Below are positions 53,357 to 53,765 of a DNA stretch of 64,000 nucleotides, piece after piece. How positions within the stretch are numbered: position 1 is the stretch's first letter; each line of letters starts with the position of its first letter. Origin of the DNA: Pseudomonadota bacterium (GTDB lineage Bacteria; Pseudomonadota; Gammaproteobacteria; Xanthomonadales; Wenzhouxiangellaceae); NCBI GenBank assembly GCA_013285445.1, contig CP053448.1, positions 186,001-250,000 of the forward strand, read 5' to 3'. The notes beneath the pieces are model-generated. The model ran no database searches. It was not told where the DNA came from and saw only the letters and a program-made list of their open reading frames with translations. The position numbers and the translations under genes are program-made.

Positions 53357-53373
53357 GTGACGAAAACTGTCAC
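53357..53373 (+). promoter_or_regulatory. Inverted repeat, candidate activator site upstream of a sigma-54 promoter
   Basis: GTGAC-GAAAACT-GTCAC, a 5-bp inverted repeat with a 7-base centre, about 72-88 bp upstream of the -24/-12 element. This is within the range used by sigma-54 enhancer-binding proteins. The activator is not identified. Confidence 0.35.
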
Positions 53374-53428
53374 ATCTTTCGCGAATTGTGACCGCATGGT
53401 TCAGCAATTGCGCGGTTTTTGCGAGGCT

Positions 53429-53445
53429 GGCACGGGATCTGCATG
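53429..53445 (+). promoter_or_regulatory. Sigma-54 (RpoN) type -24/-12 promoter
   Basis: TGGCACGGGATCTGCAT matches the RpoN consensus TGGCAC-N5-TTGCA at nearly every position, with GG and GC 12 bp apart. The predicted start of transcription is near 53455, giving a leader of about 27 bases to the ATG at 53482. Confidence 0.75.
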
Positions 53446-53481
53446 AATGGTGGCGTGACCGATCAACTGAGGAGCCTGACC

Positions 53482-53643
53482 ATGGCCCACGACAACCTGG
53501 CAATCGATCTGGAACCGGACGTTCAACTGGCCGCCAACGCAGACACGCTGCAATTTGACAACCTGCTGGCCGACGACGTGATCATGGACTGGCTGATGCA
53601 GCTCGAGCGCGAACAGAACGCGCACGCAGCCGCCGTCGGCTGA
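53482..53643 (+). CDS. 53-residue acidic protein under sigma-54 promoter, unknown function
   Basis: The start ATG at 53482 has GAGGAG at the right distance. The product begins MAHDNLAIDLEP and ends QNAHAAAVG. It has 11 Asp/Glu against one Arg, a hydrophobic patch (VIMDWLMQLE) and no Cys, Ser or Lys. The promoter, ribosome site and a strong terminator bracket it exactly, so it is a separate transcription unit and very likely real. I recognise no family. It could be a small regulatory protein or a peptide precursor; no maturation enzyme is adjacent. Confidence 0.72.
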   Translation: MAHDNLAIDLEPDVQLAANADTLQFDNLLADDVIMDWLMQLEREQNAHAAAVG

Positions 53644-53733
53644 ATGGCTTGAGCAAGGAATCTGGGAAGGGGAACCCAGGGTGCGCTTCGCGCGCACTCA
53701 ACTGACCGGCTCTAGTCCGAAGCCGGCAAGCGG

Positions 53734-53765
53734 CGCCCGCCTTCACGGCGGGCGTTTGTCTTTTT
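53734..53765 (+). terminator. Rho-independent terminator of the small acidic protein gene
   Basis: Stem CGCCCGCC / GGCGGGCG (8 bp, loop TTCAC) followed by TTTGTCTTTTT. It lies 90 bp past the stop at 53643 and just upstream of the DUF1295 gene, which must therefore use its own promoter or readthrough. Confidence 0.9.

Follow-up and report, generated by a model that had tools for sequence, protein, structure and literature searches.

A compact sigma-54 transcription unit (53357–53765, + strand) was recognized in the analyzed window, i.e., the whole stretch of 64,000 nucleotides representing positions 186001–250000 of a single-contig genome of 3.49 Mb. With a probability of roughly 0.6, this unit forms a PilR/sigma-54-controlled two-part transcript, which would provide a small, helical, acidic protein together with a regulatory RNA borne in its 3'-UTR. 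The transcript is regarded as two-part because its 3' portion harbours a conserved structured RNA. The gene itself, its conservation, its promoter, the activator site held in common with pilin genes and the fold of the RNA are apparent from sequence comparison. Taken as a whole, the unit probably serves as an overlooked element in the control of pilus or surface behaviour.

Organization of the transcription unit

All elements of the unit are encoded on the + strand in the following order: (i) a putative upstream activator site (UAS) of the type GTGAC-N7-GTCAC (GTGACGAAAACTGTCAC, 53357–53373), probably recognized by PilR and recurring as TGAC-N7-GTCA upstream of prepilin genes, (ii) a sigma-54 (-24/-12) promoter (TGGCACGGGATCTGCA, 53428–53443) agreeing with the consensus at 11 of 12 positions, (iii) a ribosome-binding site in the GAGGAG region (CTGAGGAG, 53472–53477; CTGAGGAGCCTGACC ahead of the ATG at 53482), (iv) a 53-codon gene for a small acidic protein (53482–53643, stop codon at 53641–53643), (v) three RNA hairpins, and (vi) an intrinsic terminator (53732–53765) composed of a 10-bp stem (hairpin 53732–53756) and a subsequent T-run. 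Every part of the sigma-54 unit claimed in the preceding sequence-only reading (repeat, ribosome site, 53-codon frame and terminator) could be located, and the 53-residue product indeed contains 11 acidic residues and a single arginine. An in-frame ATG had been placed at 53419, but the codon at this position is TTG; the upstream in-frame ATG (53443) lies right on the border of the -12 element. The idea of a self-contained single-gene unit was borne out, except that a conserved structured RNA, overlooked in the earlier reading, occupies the region from the stop codon to the terminator.

Elsewhere in the window, two classes of riboswitches are located back to back on opposite strands, i.e., SAM_alpha (RF00521; 25057–25132, - strand, 41.7 bits) and SAM (RF00162; 25253–25370, + strand, 83.7 bits).

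Small acidic protein

Homologues of the small gene were detected in 26 of 43 Wenzhouxiangellaceae genomes by tblastn and, as a minimum number, in 28 of the 43 by profile search, with several genomes harbouring tandem double copies. Since at least four genera possess the gene, conservation of the frame is not limited to very close relatives. When 299 genomes of the order were searched with the profile, all matches fell within the Wenzhouxiangellaceae, and no protein relatives were found in the viral contigs searched. A pattern-limited scan of genome contigs returned only Wenzhouxiangella records and one gammaproteobacterial MAG. The product had been described as a protein without known family, which agrees with the lack of significant profile or sequence family matches in Pfam, NCBIfam, PHROGs and PDB.

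The frame is subject to purifying selection (median pN/pS of 0.38 in pairwise comparisons, the pairs being mutually non-independent), and the pairwise differences at codon positions 1, 2 and 3 (771, 504 and 1324, respectively) reveal an excess at the third position. Its conservation marks the 53-codon frame as a genuine gene. The conserved C-terminal stretch of the protein reads F-x-x-L-L-[AS]-[DE]-E-V-V-x-x-W-L-x-x-L-E (LLADDVIMDWLMQLE), and structure prediction yielded a single confident amphipathic helix (residues 31–52) preceded by a poorly ordered N-terminus. Of the roles suggested earlier, small effector and anti-activator are conceivable; an involvement as peptide precursor finds no support, since a leader/core pattern is absent and so are modification genes in the neighbourhood: the conserved neighbours of the small gene encode an EamA transporter, a DUF1295 protein and GlmS, rather than the adjacent modification and export functions of a RiPP precursor.

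Sigma-54 promoter and activator site

Each of the 29 family loci examined is preceded, 32–79 bp ahead of the start codon, by a -24/-12 site that agrees with the consensus at 10 or more of the 12 positions; hence, the promoter is conserved along with the protein. RpoN is encoded in the own genome. The TGAC-N7-GTCA half-sites are complete (8 of 8 bases) in 19 of the 29 family loci and match at 7 of 8 bases in the other 10.

The composite pattern of repeat, 40–101 bp and sigma-54 site was scanned in 43 genomes, with the reversed pattern serving as control. In the own 3.49-Mb genome, the composite site occurs only three times, namely upstream of the small gene, of pilA and of a second prepilin gene. 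As the reversed pattern had no match in any of the 43 genomes, the composite site is more than a product of chance. Among the 53 composite matches listed (two patterns, 43 genomes), 20 belong to the small-gene family and 23 to prepilin genes, while 7 are located elsewhere and 3 are uninspected. Upstream of pilA (major type IV pilin; Pfam Pilin, E 3e-22), TGACAAATTTTGTCA is followed by the sigma-54 site TGGCACGCTTTGTGCA; the corresponding elements of the second prepilin gene are TGACGAAAATTGTCA and the sigma-54 site TGGCATGAAAAATGCA. By its genomic distribution, TGAC-N7-GTCA serves the type IV pilin regulon as an activator site. RpoN had been considered with respect to nitrogen, motility, pili or envelope stress; of these roles pili are favoured, because the small gene and the pilin genes share the activator site, and the list can be narrowed to the type IV pilin regulon.

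The second prepilin (L166/L085; G000:C1:1727772-1727853, - strand) has the N-terminus MNTNIRSSQGGFTLIELVIVIVILGIL, and prepilins resembling it are located behind the same activator site in other genomes. The pilA promoter (L035, 1367–1400; G000:C1:1298823-1298856) displays two close activator-like sites (CAAACTGTCATAAGGTGACAAATTTTGTCA), one of them a full repeat and the other half-like. In relatives, composite sites were also observed ahead of other genes (L196, L152, L173, L176 and L178), the products of which are secreted-looking proteins, a UspA-like protein and a response-regulator-like protein; these sites may mark additional members of the regulon or have arisen by chance.

PilS/PilR as candidate activator system

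The genes for PilS (6TM_PilS) and PilR are adjacent in the genome (G000:C1:2388.5-2391.7 kb). The unit was counted in 29 genomes, comprising 28 of the 34 with PilS above the cut-off and 1 of the 9 without; this co-occurrence is significant across the 43 genomes if relatedness is left uncorrected (Fisher p = 0.00016). The sole unit-bearing genome without PilS above the cut-off is an incomplete one, and 6 PilS-containing genomes have no detected unit. From the position of the site ahead of pilins we infer that PilR is likely the activator of the small gene, since the composite site precedes members of the small-gene family or prepilin genes in 43 of the 53 listed matches.

A different sigma-54 activator driving both the pilins and the small gene appears unlikely. 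Such an activator could be recruited from the six clear sigma-54 activator domains which the own genome encodes besides PilR, and MSHA-type prepilins could have an activator of their own. However, the PilS/PilR pair is encoded in the genome, the unit co-occurs with PilS, and in Pseudomonas, PilR acting with sigma-54 is an established regulator of pilA (PMC6058289).

With regard to sigma-54 activators of the genome, one strong domain match (L134; G000:C1:1567433-1567900, - strand) resides in an open frame of just 207 aa, which is possibly a truncated or frame-shifted activator. Two sigma-54 activators (L135 and L136; G000:C1:3272-3280 kb and 2446-2456 kb) possess N-termini that are FHA-like by our reading, and one of the two adjoins a frame reading like a protein kinase.

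Conserved 3' RNA

The stretch from the stop codon to the terminator constitutes a conserved structured RNA consisting of hairpin 1, two covarying hairpins and the terminator. Its 5' part, GGGAAGGGGAACC(C/U), is invariant or nearly so across the loci and corresponds to the invariant hairpin 1 (GGGAAGGGGAACCC, 53664–53677). In the 43 genomes, the 13-mer GGGAAGGGGAACC is almost confined to small-gene loci, and a search with it led to L204, a diverged unit that possesses a repeat, a promoter and a frame of its own and that had been missed by the protein profile. One occurrence of the 13-mer without promoter or frame (L199) was judged to be due to chance.

Hairpin 2 (GGTGCGC-loop-GCGCACT, 53680–53698) and hairpin 3 (CCGGCT-loop-AGCCGG, 53706–53726) show two-sided changes in 5 of 7 and 5 of 8 pairs, respectively, among 17 relatives. 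In the alignment of these 17 RNAs, which was fitted to the structure and hence favours the result, 92.7 % of the cells are paired, as opposed to no more than 51.4 % after sliding of the partner. Two-sided changes are carried by 10 of the 18 pairs overall, and the covariation score amounts to 0.422 as compared to at most 0.096 after sliding and 0.157 after shuffling. Using a model of 17 RNAs from which the window RNA was left out (R2), the latter was retrieved as the only match in its own genome. Tandem gene copies are mostly each accompanied by their own RNA. The RNA is absent from some units, i.e., L078 and one tandem copy (L029), even though promoter and frame are present; thus, the protein can exist without the RNA. 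The folding energy of the whole transcript is ordinary (z = -0.12), and complementarity of the G-rich motif to the co-regulated pilin leaders is not in excess (mean longest run of 5.24 vs. 5.23 for shuffled sequences).

A candidate pseudoknot is visible in which the hairpin 2 loop would pair with a stretch 3' of hairpin 3. Its register differs between clades, being UGUCUG/CAGACA in one of them and, in tandem copies, CAGGU/ACCUG or CAGGC/GCCUG. In a second genus (L020, L021, L023, L025 and L204), the hairpin 2 loop (G)GGGUU(C) might base-pair with the GAACC/GAGCC stretch in hairpin 1, representing a possible alternative or kissing contact.

No Rfam family matched the window RNA at threshold. 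The Pseudomonas rnk leader (RF01772) scored only 24 bits (E 0.051) at 53671–53765 as compared to a curated cut-off of 55 bits, and likewise had no match at threshold in 20 related loci. With regard to a candidate CsrA/RsmA target, the G-rich motif contains two GGA triplets, and the ANGGA core is absent. RNA matches in two other families (G200 and G256) had E values of 0.004–0.009 per genome, which over 299 genomes corresponds to chance level; in case of G256 (L248), a G-rich stretch is similar to the RNA motif, without further support.

Alternative interpretations of the unit

In the window and in close relatives, a DUF1295 gene starts right after the terminator (53780), which might point to the 3' RNA as a riboswitch or attenuator leader of that gene rather than as a part of the small gene. 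This is highly improbable, given that in other lineages the unit is followed by a convergent glmS gene or by another copy of itself, and the RNA remains associated with the small gene. Since the downstream gene varies, the RNA is assigned to the small-gene transcript.

The purifying selection on the frame and the two units in which promoter and frame occur but the RNA motif does not (L078 and L029) are compatible with the protein being the whole function, e.g., as an anti-activator or motor modulator within the pilin regulon, and with a 3' structure merely stabilising the mRNA or providing insulation or termination. We consider this somewhat doubtful, as a terminator or stabiliser would require neither an invariant stretch of 13 nt, which hardly recurs elsewhere in the 43 genomes, nor two more covarying hairpins in fixed order. 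Conversely, the main product could be the RNA (a sigma-54-dependent sRNA), with the frame as the lesser part of a dual-function transcript resembling SgrS/SgrT; the motif is conserved better than the frame, and it was the motif that caught the diverged unit L204. Conservation of the frame across genera at a pN/pS of ~0.38 and its persistence in units without RNA render a main role of the RNA quite improbable.

Proposed function of the two-part transcript

According to the preferred reading of a PilR/sigma-54-controlled two-part transcript, phosphorylated PilR bound to TGAC-N7-GTCA would render sigma-54 RNA polymerase active at 53428–53443, thereby co-activating the small gene, pilA and the second prepilin gene. 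The resulting single-gene transcript of ~310 nt would be a member of the type IV pilin (PilSR) regulon. Its translation would yield a small cytoplasmic acidic protein with a disordered N-terminus and one conserved amphipathic helix, the latter probably representing a docking peptide by which a partner protein involved in the biogenesis of pili or its control is bound. The 3' end would form a structured RNA, probably a 3'-UTR-derived regulatory RNA or a protein-binding RNA, that may adjust other genes upon pilin induction. Along with PilR as activator, the partner of the protein and any liberation or activity of the RNA are what we infer here.

One may speculate, rather tentatively, that the unit belongs to a new class of control elements, i.e., PilR-induced bipartite transcripts in which a protein and a partly pseudoknotted RNA jointly link pilin production to other functions. 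For example, the RNA could sequester a protein or sRNA, and the protein could dock on the pilus or PilSR machinery.

The newly recognized RNA family is absent from Rfam and the protein family from Pfam and NCBIfam. The PilR regulon past pilA consists largely of hypothetical proteins, and sequence evidence on its own now connects a compact conserved gene with it. Should the RNA be functional, it would represent a pilin-controlled structured RNA of a 3'-UTR and provide a direct handle on the coupling of type IV pilus output to the rest of the cell. Short frames and RNAs behind such frames can escape notice together.

Comparison with known systems

In Pseudomonas aeruginosa, PilR and sigma-54 likewise activate pilA and further genes, and these pilin-responsive genes beyond pilA are mostly hypothetical (PMC6058289). 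In contrast, the small-gene family described here was found only in Wenzhouxiangellaceae. To our knowledge, neither a structured 3' RNA in the PilSR regulon of P. aeruginosa nor a relatedness of its pilin-responsive genes to the small gene is known.

Dual-function RNAs of the SgrS/SgrT type combine a small protein and a regulatory RNA on one short transcript. The window unit differs in that frame and RNA lie apart and base-pairing is putative, and we know of no sequence relation between the two systems. RNAs originating from the 3' part of an mRNA offer a further comparison. The glnA gene is a sigma-54/NtrC target. The 3' UTR of glnA gives rise to the regulatory RNA GlnZ, which has a conserved seed and for which release and targets are proven (PMC9731577). 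The window unit resembles glnA as a protein-coding mRNA also yielding a 3'-UTR RNA, the release of which is only proposed in the present case, whereas host gene, promoter activator and RNA are all different. In Campylobacter jejuni, CJnc230 (FlmE) is derived from the 3' end of the RpoN-dependent flagellar flgE mRNA, with processing and targets proven (PMC11187230). An origin from the 3' end of an RpoN-dependent mRNA of a surface motility organelle would be common to both, a likeness by description rather than by sequence, and the flagellar host mRNA flgE sets CJnc230 apart. As expected for a 3'-UTR-derived RNA, the window unit carries a conserved structured element with a terminator behind its coding frame.
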